Position numbers and translations under genes: made by a program
In this document: in pieces, positions 3,721 to 19,112 of the stretch
Layout of the letters: every line of letters begins with the position of its first letter
How positions within the stretch are numbered: position 1 is the first letter of the stretch
Source of the DNA: a virus
Length of the DNA: 20,224 bases
Direction: 5' to 3' (one strand)
Virus record (IMG/VR): IMGVR_UViG_3300042154_003372
Span: 1 to 20,224 of that record
Notes under the pieces: model-generated
What the model saw: only the letters and a program-made list of their open reading frames with translations
What the model was told of the DNA's origin: nothing
Database searches by the model: none

Positions 3721-3748
3721 TAAAAAAGCCGAGTGTTTCCACCCGGCT
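3721..3748 (-). terminator. Intrinsic terminator after the ParB-like gene
   Basis: Minus strand: AGCCGGGTG, loop GAAA, CACTCGGCT (one G-T wobble), then TTTTTTATTTT. It closes the ParB-like gene cassette and lies between it and the tape measure. The tail sequence GGCTTTTTTATTT recurs in the minus-strand terminators at 4712-4742 and 9886-9913. Confidence 0.8.
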
Positions 3749-3772: not shown

Positions 3773-4570
3773 CTATAATGGCGTTGGGAATTGTTCATCA
3801 ACTGGCTTGTATTTTAACATTGAAAGCTCATTCCCTTTTCTAAAGCAATTCCATGTTTTAATAATAAATGCAAGCTTAATAACGTCTTCTATTTTGTATT
3901 GTGAAGACATTCTAGAATCAATTAGTCGCTTTCTCAGCACATGCATTGTGTCATTTTTTACACCCTTGCCAGTGCAAATTTGCTGGACAAACTCAAATGA
4001 ATCTTCCTTGTTGATTTTAGCAAATAAAAATAAAACTCCACAAACCCAAGACTGAGACAATGCCCGGCTAAAGTCTTTGCTTAGTTTTTGACTAATAGCC
4101 CCACATTCATCCCATAAATCAGCATCCTTTAAATAATGTTCAACTATTTCTGGGTTTAAAAGGACGCTCCTTGCGGAATTTTTGTTTTTAGATGCCCAAT
4201 CTTGAAGCTGTATTGCCGCCGCTATAGTTATTCCGTTTTTTACTTTCATTATGCTAAGTGCATCCCCGCCAGTTCTTTTTTTACCTGTATCAATCACGTC
4301 GAAAATATTTTCGTTTAACCCAGTTGCTACATGTAAATAAACCCCTGTGTTAGCTCTAACAATTGCAAGCAACCTGTGTTGTCCATCTAAAAGCCTTCCA
4401 TTTTCTGCAATCTTTATAGGTTCGCACGTGTCTTCTCTCCATCCTCCATTTGCCATTTGTGCAGCATATCTTTTTACTACTGGCTCTGCAATCCTCCTAT
4501 TGTTTACATTACCAGTCGCCAATATTGATTTTGCAAAATCAGGCGTAACAAATACTTTTTCGATTTTCAT
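3773..4570 (-). CDS. ParB/sulfiredoxin-fold protein, 265 aa, moron-like cassette
   Basis: Resembles a phage family with a ParB N-terminal/sulfiredoxin-like fold. The diagnostic motif is GRLLDGQHRLLAIVRA at about residues 57-72, preceded by VVKRYAAQMANGGWRED (residues 31-47) and followed by VIDTGKKRTGGDALS. DGQHRL is the phosphate- or nucleotide-binding loop of the family. The C-terminal half is helical and unrecognised. Functions of these phage proteins are not established; relatives include nucleases, CTP-binding proteins and DndB-like proteins. The ATG at 4570 is clear. The gene has its own promoter (4681-4710), a structured ~95-nt leader ending in a terminator 20 nt before the ATG, and a terminator after the stop. 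Expression thus needs read-through of the leader terminator, which suggests attenuation control. Confidence 0.75.
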   Translation of the reverse strand: MKIEKVFVTPDFAKSILATGNVNNRRIAEPVVKRYAAQMANGGWREDTCEPIKIAENGRLLDGQHRLLAIVRANTGVYLHVATGLNENIFDVIDTGKKRTGGDALSIMKVKNGITIAAAIQLQDWASKNKNSARSVLLNPEIVEHYLKDADLWDECGAISQKLSKDFSRALSQSWVCGVLFLFAKINKEDSFEFVQQICTGKGVKNDTMHVLRKRLIDSRMSSQYKIEDVIKLAFIIKTWNCFRKGNELSMLKYKPVDEQFPTPL

Positions 4571-4578
4571 AATGAGTT

Positions 4579-4615
4579 AAAATAAAAAAGGCTGTCCGGT
4601 GATGTACAGACAGCC
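4579..4615 (-). terminator. Leader terminator (H3 of RNA A)
   Basis: A perfect 7-bp stem GGCTGTC/GACAGCC with a 12-nt loop, followed on the minus strand by TTTTTTATTTT. It lies between the promoter at 4681-4710 and the ATG at 4570, where a terminator only makes sense as an attenuator or as the end of a separate small RNA. Confidence 0.8.
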
Positions 4616-4675
4616 AAGGTTAGCAATTTTATTTGCTAATTGTTCCTTTGGGCGTACATCACTCCGTTCAAAGGA
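4579..4675 (-). ncRNA. Kissing-loop leader RNA A upstream of the ParB-like gene
   Basis: Read on the minus strand from a start near 4675. H1 is CCTTTG (4674-4669), an 18-nt loop, CAAAGG (4650-4645); its loop contains GTGATGTAC (4662-4654). H2 is TTAGCAA (4639-4633), a 6-nt loop, TTGCTAA (4626-4620). H3 is GGCTGTC (4615-4609), a 12-nt loop, GACAGCC (4596-4590), then TTTTTTATTTT; its loop contains GTACATCAC (4607-4599), the exact 9-nt complement of the H1 loop motif. The gene start is at 4570. The plus-strand RNA at 17750-17858 has the same plan with different sequence. Either a cis attenuator or a stand-alone small RNA; I know no described family like it. Confidence 0.7.
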
Positions 4676-4680
4676 TAGGT

Positions 4681-4710
4681 CAAAGATAATATAATATTTT
4701 TAATAACAAA
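4681..4710 (-). promoter_or_regulatory. Promoter for leader RNA A and the ParB-like gene
   Basis: Minus strand TTTG (4710-4707), 18-nt A/T-only spacer, TATCTTTG (4688-4681). A full match to TAnnTTTG. The predicted start about six bases on coincides with the first base of hairpin H1. The preceding operon's terminator ends right at the -33 box. Confidence 0.75.
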
Positions 4711-4711
4711 A

Positions 4712-4742
4712 TAAAAAAGCCCGCACTTTTCAGCACGGGCTT
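4712..4742 (-). terminator. Intrinsic terminator after the tail chaperone genes
   Basis: Minus strand AAGCCCG (4742-4736), inner T-G wobble pairs and a small loop, CGGGCTT (4723-4717), then a T-rich tail (TTTTTTATTTT). It ends the upstream tail operon 27 nt after the chaperone T-frame stop and runs straight into the -33 box of the next promoter. Confidence 0.82.
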
Positions 4743-4768
4743 AACAAAACCTGATTTATGGAAAATTA

Positions 4769-17380: not shown

Positions 17381-17412
17381 TTTGCGGGTTTGGAAAATAG
17401 GTTGTAGATTTG
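17381..17412 (+). promoter_or_regulatory. Consensus promoter for the 17418-17534 small RNA
   Basis: TTTG (17381-17384), 20-nt spacer, TAGATTTG (17405-17412): a full match to the Bacteroidota consensus. No ORF follows before the terminator at 17511-17534, so it drives a non-coding transcript. Confidence 0.78.
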
Positions 17413-17417
17413 TAACT

Positions 17418-17534
17418 ACAAGTTGATTTACAGATCATCTAATTATAGCCTGCGTTTACAGGACGTGGTTTACGGCTCTGATTTGTGGAAATGGAATCTA
17501 ATCAACCACCCCCGGCTCAGTGCTGGGTTTTTTT
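17418..17534 (+). ncRNA. Candidate small non-coding RNA, about 115 nt
   Basis: Bounded by a consensus promoter ending at 17412 and an intrinsic terminator at 17511-17534. The transcript ends pair: GTTGATT (17422-17428) with AATCAAC (17500-17506), extended by AGAT (17432-17435) with ATCT (17496-17499), giving an 11-bp closing stem with a 3-nt bulge. Inside are short hairpins CCTG/CAGG and AGCC/GGCT and a repeated GTTTAC. No start codon with a useful ORF is present. It does not match the kissing-loop plan of the RNA at 17750-17858. No family recognised. Confidence 0.6.
17511..17534 (+). terminator. Intrinsic terminator of the small RNA
   Basis: CCCGGC (17511-17516), loop TCAGT, GCTGGG (17522-17527), one G-T wobble, then seven T. 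A strong plus-strand terminator with no coding gene upstream. Confidence 0.87.
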
Positions 17535-17568
17535 GAATGAAGCAGCAAAGGCTGTTTAAGATAAATTT

Positions 17569-17640
17569 GGGCTTGTGGTGTAAATGGTATAGCACAGATG
17601 GTTCGGCTGAAAAGAGCTGGTTCGAATCCAGTCAAGTCCA
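17569..17640 (+). tRNA. tRNA-like element with abnormal anticodon arm
   Basis: The acceptor GGGCTTG (17569-17575) pairs with CAAGTCC (17633-17639), then discriminator A and no encoded CCA. The D arm is GTGT/GCAC with loop AAATGGTATA. The T arm is GCTGG-TTCGAAT-CCAGT with a normal loop. Between the D and T arms only 20 nt remain (17596-17615) where a tRNA needs at least about 21-23, and they form no 5-bp anticodon stem; the best pairing is CAG/CTG with a 9-nt loop. It is therefore a degenerate tRNA, a tRNA mimic, or a tRNA too unusual for me to assign an anticodon. The D-arm start TGGTGTAA is like Bacteroidota tRNA-Gln. Confidence 0.5.
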
Positions 17641-17647
17641 CAAATCA

Positions 17648-17705
17648 GGCCACAAAGGGGTAATTGCCAGAGAATTAAGTCAATGGATTTACCCCGATGT
17701 AGGCC
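17648..17705 (+). other. Large imperfect hairpin between tRNA-like element and promoter
   Basis: Nested stems GGCC (17648-17651)/GGCC (17702-17705) and GGGGTAA (17657-17663)/TTACCCC (17689-17695), with a possible CCA/TGG inside. No gene overlaps it. It may be the 3' part of a transcript including the tRNA-like element, or a protein-binding site upstream of the promoter at 17715-17744. Confidence 0.4.
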
Positions 17706-17714
17706 GGGAAAGAA

Positions 17715-17744
17715 TTGATTTTTTGATTTTATTTTGTATATTTG
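17715..17744 (+). promoter_or_regulatory. Promoter of the replication module and leader RNA B
   Basis: TTG (17715-17717), 19-nt A/T/G spacer, TATATTTG (17737-17744), a full match to TAnnTTTG. The predicted start is a few bases before hairpin H1 of the leader RNA, the same arrangement as at 4681-4710. Confidence 0.78.
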
Positions 17745-17749
17745 TGATA

Positions 17750-17858
17750 ATGTATGTGCCTTGAAGGAGAGAGCAAAGCACATATTTCGCAAAGTATTTT
17801 CATGGGATTATACTTAACAGTCTAAGGCTGCCTGAACTCTCTCCAGGTGGCCTTTTTT
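17750..17858 (+). ncRNA. Kissing-loop leader RNA B upstream of the replication genes
   Basis: H1 is TATGTGC (17753-17759), an 18-nt loop, GCACATA (17778-17784); its loop holds GGAGAGAG (17766-17773), six bases in. H2 is AAGTAT (17792-17797)/ATACTT (17810-17815). H3 is GGCTGCCTG (17826-17834), a 9-nt loop, CAGGTGGCC (17844-17852), then T6; it holds CTCTCTCC (17837-17844), the exact complement of the H1 motif. The plan is the same as RNA A: an 18-nt H1 loop, the motif starting at loop position 7, an A/T-rich middle hairpin, then a terminator. The zinc-finger gene starts 26 nt after the T tract. Cis attenuator or small RNA. Confidence 0.7.
17826..17858 (+). terminator. Leader terminator (H3 of RNA B)
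   Basis: A 9-bp stem with two G-T wobbles, a 9-nt loop, then TTTTTT. It lies between the promoter and the first replication-module gene, so transcription of that module must read through it. Confidence 0.8.
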
Positions 17859-17883
17859 ATTGTCAAAATTTAAACTGCGAGAT

Positions 17884-18195
17884 ATGAAACAGAGACTTGT
17901 CAAGGCTCGCAAAGACCACGAATGCGAGGGATGCAATGAAGGCATCAAGAAAGGCGAAAAGTACGAGCTACTAGAAGCCAGAGTTCCAAAATACAAAAAT
18001 GGTGACGATGAGGCCGGGCAAATCGGAGTCGAGTTTTTAAGATACAAAACTTGCTTTCGTTGCTGGGAGGTGCAATTTGACACATGCACAGGTGGATGTG
18101 ATTTTGTACTAGAAAGAGATATGGACGATCACGGCGCACCTACTGGTGATCTTGCTTGTATCAATTGTGGAACCGTAAAACCCGCCATGCAATGA
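17884..18195 (+). CDS. Zinc-ribbon protein, 103 aa
   Basis: First gene of the plus-strand replication module. I chose the ATG at 17884 (MKQRLVKARKDHECEGCNEG); a TTG at 17860 lies next to the leader terminator and is unlikely. Cysteine pairs: C-E-G-C at about residues 14-17; C-F-R-C in YKTCFRCWEVQFDTCTGGCD, plus two more Cys; and a final C-I-N-C in ACINCGTVK. The first motif with KKGEKY is typical of small zinc-binding phage proteins. Zinc binding is likely; the function (nucleic-acid binding or regulation) is not known. The stop overlaps the next start (ATGA). Its expression depends on read-through of the RNA B terminator. Confidence 0.7.
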   Translation: MKQRLVKARKDHECEGCNEGIKKGEKYELLEARVPKYKNGDDEAGQIGVEFLRYKTCFRCWEVQFDTCTGGCDFVLERDMDDHGAPTGDLACINCGTVKPAMQ

Positions 18196-19112
18196 GCAAG
18201 ATAACCCGCCAAAAGCGCACCGATAACTTTACGGTCGTAAATAACGACGTGATCCAAAACAAAGACCTTTCCTGGGCTGCAAAGGGAATGCTAGTTTACC
18301 TGCTACACCTTCCCGACAATTGGCAAATAAATGTTGCCGATCTTTCCAATCGTTCCAAAAATGGCCGTGACGGTACGGCTGGAATCATTAAGGAATTGAT
18401 GACAGCCGGGTACATTTCACGGGTGAAGATCAAGAATGAAAAAGCCCAATTCAAAGGCTACGATTATACCGTAACCGATAAACCCGTAAACGGGAAAGCC
18501 GTAAACGGTTTATCCGTAGACGGAACTTCCGTAAACGGGAAAGCCGTAACAAGTAAGTACTATCAGGAGGAAATACTAAGTGAAGTAAATACTAATGAAG
18601 TAAACAATGTCGAAAAAGAATTTTCGACCGTCACCCTGATTGATGAAGTAGACGAAATGATGGTTGAAATTCACCACGTGCCGGAATACTTCGACATCGA
18701 ACAAAAAGAGCCAAAAGAAAAAAGTTCCGCGAAAAAAGAAAAGGTAGCCGACCCCGCCCCTATCACTTTGATGTGGTTGGAATATGAAAATCGGTTTGCT
18801 GATTTGAATCGGGGAGAGAAACCAGTCTTTCACAAAAAATACTTGCGCTCACTAAAGACCCTGTTTGCCGTGCTGCGAGAACGAACGATTACAAAGGGCA
18901 TTGTCCCTTTGAACGACGTGCAACCCTGGTGCGACTTTCTGGATATGGCAAAGGATTACCTCAAAGCCAACCCGAAAGAGGCATACTTGCACGGAAGGTT
19001 TGACCCCATTGGGATTGAAGCGGAATTCAATAAATGGATTACCACATTGAACAACCGCCCAAAAACCGAAGCTGAAAAGTGGGTTGAATGGGGTAAGCGG
19101 CAGGGATTATAA
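18192..19112 (+). CDS. Winged-helix replication initiator (lambda O/DnaD-type), 306 aa
   Basis: Likely origin-binding replication protein. I chose the ATG at 18192 (MSKITRQKRTDNFTVVNNDV), overlapping the previous stop (ATGA). The N-terminal winged helix is VIQNKDLSWAAKGMLVYLLH, then LPDNWQINVADLSNRSKNGR and IIKELMTAGYISRVKI (residues 20-90). Then comes a stretch of pentapeptide repeats (PVNGK, AVNGL, SVDGT, SVNGK) at about residues 98-117, encoded by 15-bp iterons that probably form the origin. An acidic/lysine-rich linker leads to a helical C-terminal domain (YLRSLKTLFAVLRERTITKG, then PWCDFLDMAKDYLKANPKEA) that may contact the helicase or its loader. The origin-inside-initiator layout is as in lambda O. 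Confidence 0.75.
   Translation: MSKITRQKRTDNFTVVNNDVIQNKDLSWAAKGMLVYLLHLPDNWQINVADLSNRSKNGRDGTAGIIKELMTAGYISRVKIKNEKAQFKGYDYTVTDKPVNGKAVNGLSVDGTSVNGKAVTSKYYQEEILSEVNTNEVNNVEKEFSTVTLIDEVDEMMVEIHHVPEYFDIEQKEPKEKSSAKKEKVADPAPITLMWLEYENRFADLNRGEKPVFHKKYLRSLKTLFAVLRERTITKGIVPLNDVQPWCDFLDMAKDYLKANPKEAYLHGRFDPIGIEAEFNKWITTLNNRPKTEAEKWVEWGKRQGL
18469..18558 (+). repeat. 15-bp iterons: putative replication origin inside the initiator gene
   Basis: Six 15-bp units in exact register start at 18469, 18484, 18499, 18514, 18529 and 18544. The middle four begin CCGTAAACGG, CCGTAAACGG, CCGTAGACGG and CCGTAAACGG; the outer two are degenerate (CCGTAACCGA, CCGTAACAAG). The core is a near-palindrome CCGT-AA-ACGG. 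An A/T-rich stretch and a perfect 8-bp inverted repeat follow (18559-18628). Iterons within the initiator gene followed by A/T-rich DNA match the lambda-type origin plan. Confidence 0.75.
18609..18628. repeat. Perfect inverted repeat next to the iterons
   Basis: GTCGAAAA-AGAA-TTTTCGAC: two 8-bp arms, 4-bp spacer, about 50 bp after the iterons and after an A/T-rich stretch. Lambda-type origins have a similar inverted repeat in their A/T-rich part. It lies within the coding region (residues about 140-146 of the initiator). Confidence 0.55.

Follow-up and report, generated by a model that had tools for sequence, protein, structure and literature searches.

Promoter-proximal leaders with matching hairpin loops in an uncultured phage group: candidate transcription attenuators with private loop codes

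In phages P1 and P7, the C4 antisense RNA and its target lie on one transcript, and specificity differs between heteroimmune phages. C4 prevents a leader ORF from being translated and exerts its effect through polarity. The repC attenuator of the Staphylococcus plasmid pT181 is controlled by a kissing contact with the antisense RNA RNAI, which sets termination, and swapping of loops changes its specificity (PMC3753616). For the CI RNA of phage P4 (seqA, seqB and seqC), complementary segments lie on an untranslated leader before the replication genes and transcription terminates prematurely (PMC4825925). In the case of IsrK of Gifsy-1, a short terminated RNA and a read-through mRNA start from one promoter and the short form acts on the long form in trans (PMC4825925). 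In phage HK022, two put RNAs share sequence, contain two stem-loops each, and let polymerase pass terminators (PMC9378689).

Here we describe two leaders, RNA A and RNA B, in a 20,224-nt stretch of viral DNA (the window), probably from a Bacteroidota phage. In both, the loop of the first hairpin, H1, is complementary to the loop of the leader's own intrinsic terminator. Because related phages alter the letters and keep the match, this pairing is probably a real switch that controls expression of the gene behind it.

RNA A and RNA B in the window

RNA A occupies the minus strand from 4709 to 4584 and consists, in order, of a promoter, H1, an A/T-rich hairpin (H2) and an intrinsic terminator (Table 1). 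A sequence-only reading had placed such an element at 4579-4710, a span that covers RNA A well. Its description held for the consensus promoter with a start at H1, the 18-nt loop of H1, the A/T-rich middle hairpin, the terminator, and the perfect 9-nt complement between the two loops. It had set the gene start 20 nt past the stem; the gene does lie close behind the leader, and the exact distance is 19 nt. The loop match was also taken to be unlikely by chance, in line with a frequency of ~4e-4 for a match this long in shuffled loops of RNA A. The RNA A fold was more stable than 200 of 200 shuffles (z -5.3).

The second RNA of the same plan that the reading had noticed is RNA B, which lies on the plus strand from 17715 to 17858, ahead of the replication operon. 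Its loop match has a chance of ~2.5e-3 in shuffled loops. RNA A and RNA B have the promoter and the plan in common, and no stem or loop sequence. Their middle elements also differ, and RNA B is without an inverted repeat of the H2 kind. A replication-initiator-like gene, ending at 19112, comes after the first gene behind RNA B, and this first gene differs from phage to phage.

Table 1. Positions of the leader elements and adjacent features in the window
Feature	Position	Strand	Description
Terminator of gene upstream of RNA A	4712..4743	minus	GCCCGTGCTGAAAAGTGCGGGC then T6; insulates RNA A unit
RNA A promoter	4681..4709	minus	TTG 4709-4707, N18, TATCTTTG 4688-4681; pattern scan
RNA A H1	4644..4675	minus	TCCTTTG / 18-nt loop AACGGAGTGATGTACGCC / CAAAGGA; 7-bp stem
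RNA A H1 pairing segment	4662-4654	minus	GTGATGTAC
RNA A middle hairpin H2	4620..4639	minus	TTAGCAA-N6-TTGCTAA; at DNA level also an inverted repeat
RNA A intrinsic terminator	4584..4615	minus	Stem GGCTGTCTG..CGGACAGCC 4615-4590, then six U
RNA A terminator-loop segment	4607-4599	minus	GTACATCAC; complements H1 loop GTGATGTAC 9/9
RNA A cargo gene	3773..4570	minus	265-aa ParB-like protein, phrog_5931; ATG at 4570
Terminator after RNA A cargo gene	3722..3748	minus	AGCCGGGTGGAAACACTCGGCT then T6
RNA B promoter	17715..17744	plus	TTG, N19, TATATTTG
RNA B H1	17752..17785	plus	8-bp stem, 18-nt loop
RNA B H1 pairing segment	17766-17773	plus	GGAGAGAG
RNA B conserved middle element	17802..17812	plus	ATGGGATTATA
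RNA B intrinsic terminator	17824..17858	plus	Loop pairs with H1 loop
RNA B terminator-loop segment	17837-17844	plus	CTCTCTCC; pairs with GGAGAGAG
First gene behind RNA B	17860..18195	plus	Start TTG 17860 or ATG 17884

A leader peptide (ATG GGA TTA TAA/TAG) in RNA B was considered and is unsupported: RNA A has no ATG there, and an identical 11-mer stands ahead of an unrelated terminator. The element ATGGGATTATA recurs in two related phages (G003, 39145, plus strand; G009, 2165-2155, minus strand), each time shortly 5' of an ordinary intrinsic terminator that ends a late gene, so that it may be a terminator-associated signal.

The region 5' of RNA B contains several other features. Four phages share a conserved structured stretch, GGCCACA.AGGGGTAATTGCC..TTTACCCCGATGTAGGCC, which lies directly 5' of the RNA B promoter (17640-17710 in the window) and is possibly an operator, an origin or an RNA. 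At 17569-17640 there is a degenerate tRNA-like sequence (Rfam tRNA, 37.8 bits; none by ARAGORN), and G003 and G009 have similar stretches upstream of RNA B. A further consensus promoter with a terminator ~110 nt on (17382-17535) lies 5' of the tRNA-like stretch and is kept in G003 and G009.

Loop codes and cargo genes in related phages

Searches with the cargo protein, the terminase, DNA patterns and covariance models yielded the relatives G003 (44 kb), G009 (44 kb), G010 (15.6 kb) and the contig L003; a further contig, L002, carries the window's region in nearly identical form. The terminases of G003 and G009 are 93% identical to that of the window. Both leaders are present in the window, G003 and G009, while the fragments G010 and L003 contain RNA B and RNA A, respectively.

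The resulting eight leaders on five contigs are alike in order and spacing. TTG-N18..20-TAnnTTTG was found in 8/8, fitting the Bacteroidota consensus TTG..TAnnTTTG. The -7 box ends 4-10 nt ahead of H1 in every copy, which puts the expected transcription start at H1 or a few nt ahead of it. All eight consist of a promoter, a leader, an intrinsic terminator and a gene directly behind, as in attenuator leaders broadly defined, and the path from the leader promoter to the gene leads only through the terminator. A pattern scan revealed no other promoter for the genes behind the leaders and no opposite-strand consensus promoter over RNA A or RNA B. Other consensus promoters in the clade phages are without such leaders, and no further copy of the pairing sites able to act in trans was evident in these phages.

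Six different loop codes were found in the window and the four related contigs, each matching its own terminator loop at 8-9 of 9 positions. In RNA A, the window's GTGATGTAC/GTACATCAC is replaced by GTGATGCAC/GTGCATCAC in L003, with two double compensatory changes in the H1 stem, and by GGTAGAGTG/CACTCTACC at the same locus of G009. The RNA B codes are GGAGAGAG/CTCTCTCC in the window, GTGAGACCC/GGGTCTCAC in G003, GTGGAACC/GGTTCCAC in G009 and TGTGGAACC/GGTTCCACA in G010. The codes diverge between close relatives whose flanks are ~90% identical. Comparison of all H1 loops with all terminator loops gave 8-9 for cognate pairs and longest runs of 3-6 for non-cognate pairs, with the sole exception of RNA B from G009 and G010, whose near-identical codes cross-match at 8-9.

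In the alignment of the four RNA A sequences, 5 of 10 tested loop-loop pairs were changed on both sides and 0 of the 9 pairs of the window's kiss were broken, in a small sample (six codes in all, with four sequences of each leader type). None of 500 shuffles attained the whole-structure count, and slid-register controls gave 0-1. The sequence-only reading had named loss of loop complementarity with persisting stems as evidence against itself, and had proposed to look for compensatory changes in both loops; the former was not observed among the six codes, and the latter were. These comparisons strongly support the view that loop-loop pairing is conserved by compensatory change. The H2 sequence is constant across every RNA A copy despite the differing loops. 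As the middle element is constant within a class while the loops change, that of each class probably has its own partner.

RNA A forms an insulated unit of terminator, promoter, leader, gene and terminator. The RNA A leader of G003 is almost unchanged, yet a different gene of 211 aa stands behind it, whereas L003 carries the same leader type and a 95%-identical ParB-like gene in another phage, oriented against its neighbours. The same leader with different genes across phages indicates that leader and cargo gene are exchanged independently, recombining at the leader. The 211-aa gene (L008:1422-2057) has relatives in unrelated phage contigs and gave no Pfam or PADLOC match. A type IV CRISPR-Cas module that looks complete (csf3/cas5, PAPS reductase, csf2/cas7, cas11 and csf1) was observed within the late operon of G009 (L137:2416-5680, minus strand).

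To examine the occurrence of such leaders, a promoter-free descriptor (hairpin, terminator and loop match of at least 8) was applied. In the window it picked out RNA A and RNA B (the latter at 17752-17854, plus strand) and nothing else, and five shuffled windows gave no match. The full descriptor (promoter, H1, terminator and loop match of at least 8) returned 8 loci in ~134 kb of clade DNA and 0 in 1.89 Mb of other DNA, mostly Bacteroidota phages and genomes. When the descriptor was applied to the surroundings of related terminases, at 80 viral and 27 genome loci, no member outside the clade emerged. A candidate found by DNA pattern (L021) sits inside a coding gene and was discarded as a false positive.

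A cmscan of the window and its relatives against Rfam 15, at the gathering score and also at permissive E-values, found no family covering the leaders, in agreement with the earlier statement that no described family with this plan is known; the tRNA-like stretch gave the only match. Nucleotide comparison of RNA A, RNA B and the G009 copies with 50,697 phage records gave no convincing match. The covariance search proposed for Bacteroidota recovered relatives within the clade; among 395 Bacteroidota genomes per model (R1 and R2) it gave only weak matches at chance level, and those of R1 had no loop match by the promoter-based descriptor. Within the reach of these searches, which gave no convincing match in the 395 Bacteroidota genomes or in cultured phages, the family appears confined to a single group of uncultured phages.

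Folding, proposed mechanism and alternatives

The energies of the competing structures were compared via free and forced folds. When the RNAs were folded to the end of the terminator loop only, the long-range helix dominated in 8/8 (P 0.88-1.00). A kinetic antiterminator would require such behaviour, although it follows almost automatically from any 8-9-bp match. With the 3' arm of the terminator present, the terminator fold won in 7/8 and RNA A of G009 was balanced; in L003 and G009 the two alternative folds lie within 3.4 kcal/mol. Only L003 showed a significant extension of the pairing into the stems (p 0.0003); the extension was weak in the remaining copies of RNA A, and RNA B had none. 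We therefore reject a classical extended antiterminator as a general feature, and the common feature is the loop-loop contact.

We propose, with a probability of about 0.6, that both leaders act as promoter-proximal attenuators of transcription, and that read-through is set by competition between the terminator and a private pairing of 8-9 bp. The 5' arm and loop of the terminator would emerge from polymerase earlier than the 3' arm, and the emerging loop could pair with the H1 loop over 8-9 bp, nucleated loop to loop; in RNA A the pairing might extend into the stems. This would oppose closure of the terminator hairpin, and the balance would lie between a short RNA of ~95-110 nt and read-through into the gene. 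The effect of the pairing, its direction and its trigger are what we infer from the sequences: pairing would favour read-through, and an occupant of either loop would tip the balance. No trigger was found in these analyses; the likeliest input, and the most economical candidate, would be the short RNA itself, which on accumulating would exert negative feedback on newly made transcripts. Such feedback would also account for the retention of a separate code by each leader. The loop-loop pairing could instead be compatible with the terminator, or help it. More tentatively, the loops may form a self-recognition code, by which the short RNA shuts only leaders of the same code. This would amount to a protein-free, rapidly diversifying copy-number control or exclusion, separate for replication (RNA B) and exchangeable cargo (RNA A).

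A related possibility, which we entertain with reserve, is same-transcript antisense immunity or incompatibility in the style of P4 CI and P1 C4, where the short RNA would act in trans on the leader of another phage of identical code, whether incoming or sister, and shut its operon. RNA B, with antisense and target on one leader before replication genes, would suit such a role, as would the diversification of private codes between close relatives, and P4 CI likewise pairs with two complementary sites on its own leader (PMC4825925). However, RNA A precedes cargo rather than replication genes, no Rfam match to P4 or C4 was obtained, and classical immunity is doubtful because no tyrosine integrase and no evident lysogeny region were found in the window, G003, G009 and G010 (records that may be incomplete). 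Rather unlikely is a small RNA as the product, in which the kissing helix would lock the outer hairpins of a stable ~95-110-nt molecule and expose the middle element to a protein or target, read-through being incidental. While the very stable fold of RNA A, the strong-looking terminators and the middle elements, fixed within a class as the loops vary freely, are consistent with this, such a scaffold has no need of a distinct loop code per copy. Moreover, the middle elements of RNA A and RNA B are unlike, and every leader has its own promoter and directly precedes a gene for which no second promoter is visible.

The sequence-only reading had also raised antitermination in the manner of put, with a folded leader that binds RNA polymerase so that terminators are passed. 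Like HK022, these phages have two promoter-proximal RNAs with stem-loops (PMC9378689), but the analogy proved weak: the put RNAs share sequence and bind polymerase, whereas RNA A and RNA B have no stem or loop sequence in common, their loops change freely, and they end in a hairpin that, with its U-tract, is itself a terminator. We consider it very improbable here. Equally improbable is a function at the DNA level, with the H2 repeat of RNA A (TTAGCAA-N5/6-TTGCTAA) as an operator and the hairpins secondary; the repeat is conserved, palindromic and present once per phage, but the loop covariation would be left unexplained and RNA B has no such repeat. Short matches do occur, with 23 kisses of at least 8 in the 1.89 Mb when no promoter is required, yet a chance match of no function is contradicted by the covariation, the six cognate codes and the 8 full matches within the clade against 0 outside, and its likelihood is negligible.

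Comparison with described systems

If the attenuator reading is true, these leaders represent an attenuator found in nature that is switched when the H1 loop pairs privately with the loop of its own terminator, with a freely changeable code. Orthogonal attenuator families have been made by loop swapping in synthetic biology (PMC3753616), and this clade appears to have evolved orthogonal attenuators by loop change in nature, twice per phage. The leader accompanies the exchangeable cargo genes of these phages or persists when they are replaced. The leaders also offer an unusually direct test of co-transcriptional loop-loop contact against intrinsic termination.

As in P1 and P7 C4, antisense and target share a transcript, but the partner here is an intrinsic terminator. 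The plan is like that of pT181 in its loop-loop contact and in a leader, ahead of a replication gene, that contains a first hairpin, a terminator and possibly an antiterminator. An antiterminator helix of the pT181 type is energetically possible before the 3' arm in 8/8, with extension beyond 8-9 bp significant only in L003. In pT181 the partner is a separate antisense RNA; in these leaders it is the transcript's own terminator loop, which the pairing occupies. P4 has a processed CI RNA and two target sites, whereas these leaders have two segments, both hairpin loops and one of them a terminator; no second target site of the P4 CI kind is present, the complement of the H1 loop occurring once on the leader, in the terminator loop. 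IsrK, unlike these leaders, acts on translation of orf45/anrP, and the passages on it in PMC4825925 that were consulted describe no loop-terminator code. The leaders resemble pT181 attenuation or P4/P1 same-transcript antisense control without fitting the definition of either, and their distinguishing feature is that both pairing partners are hairpin loops of one RNA, one being the terminator.
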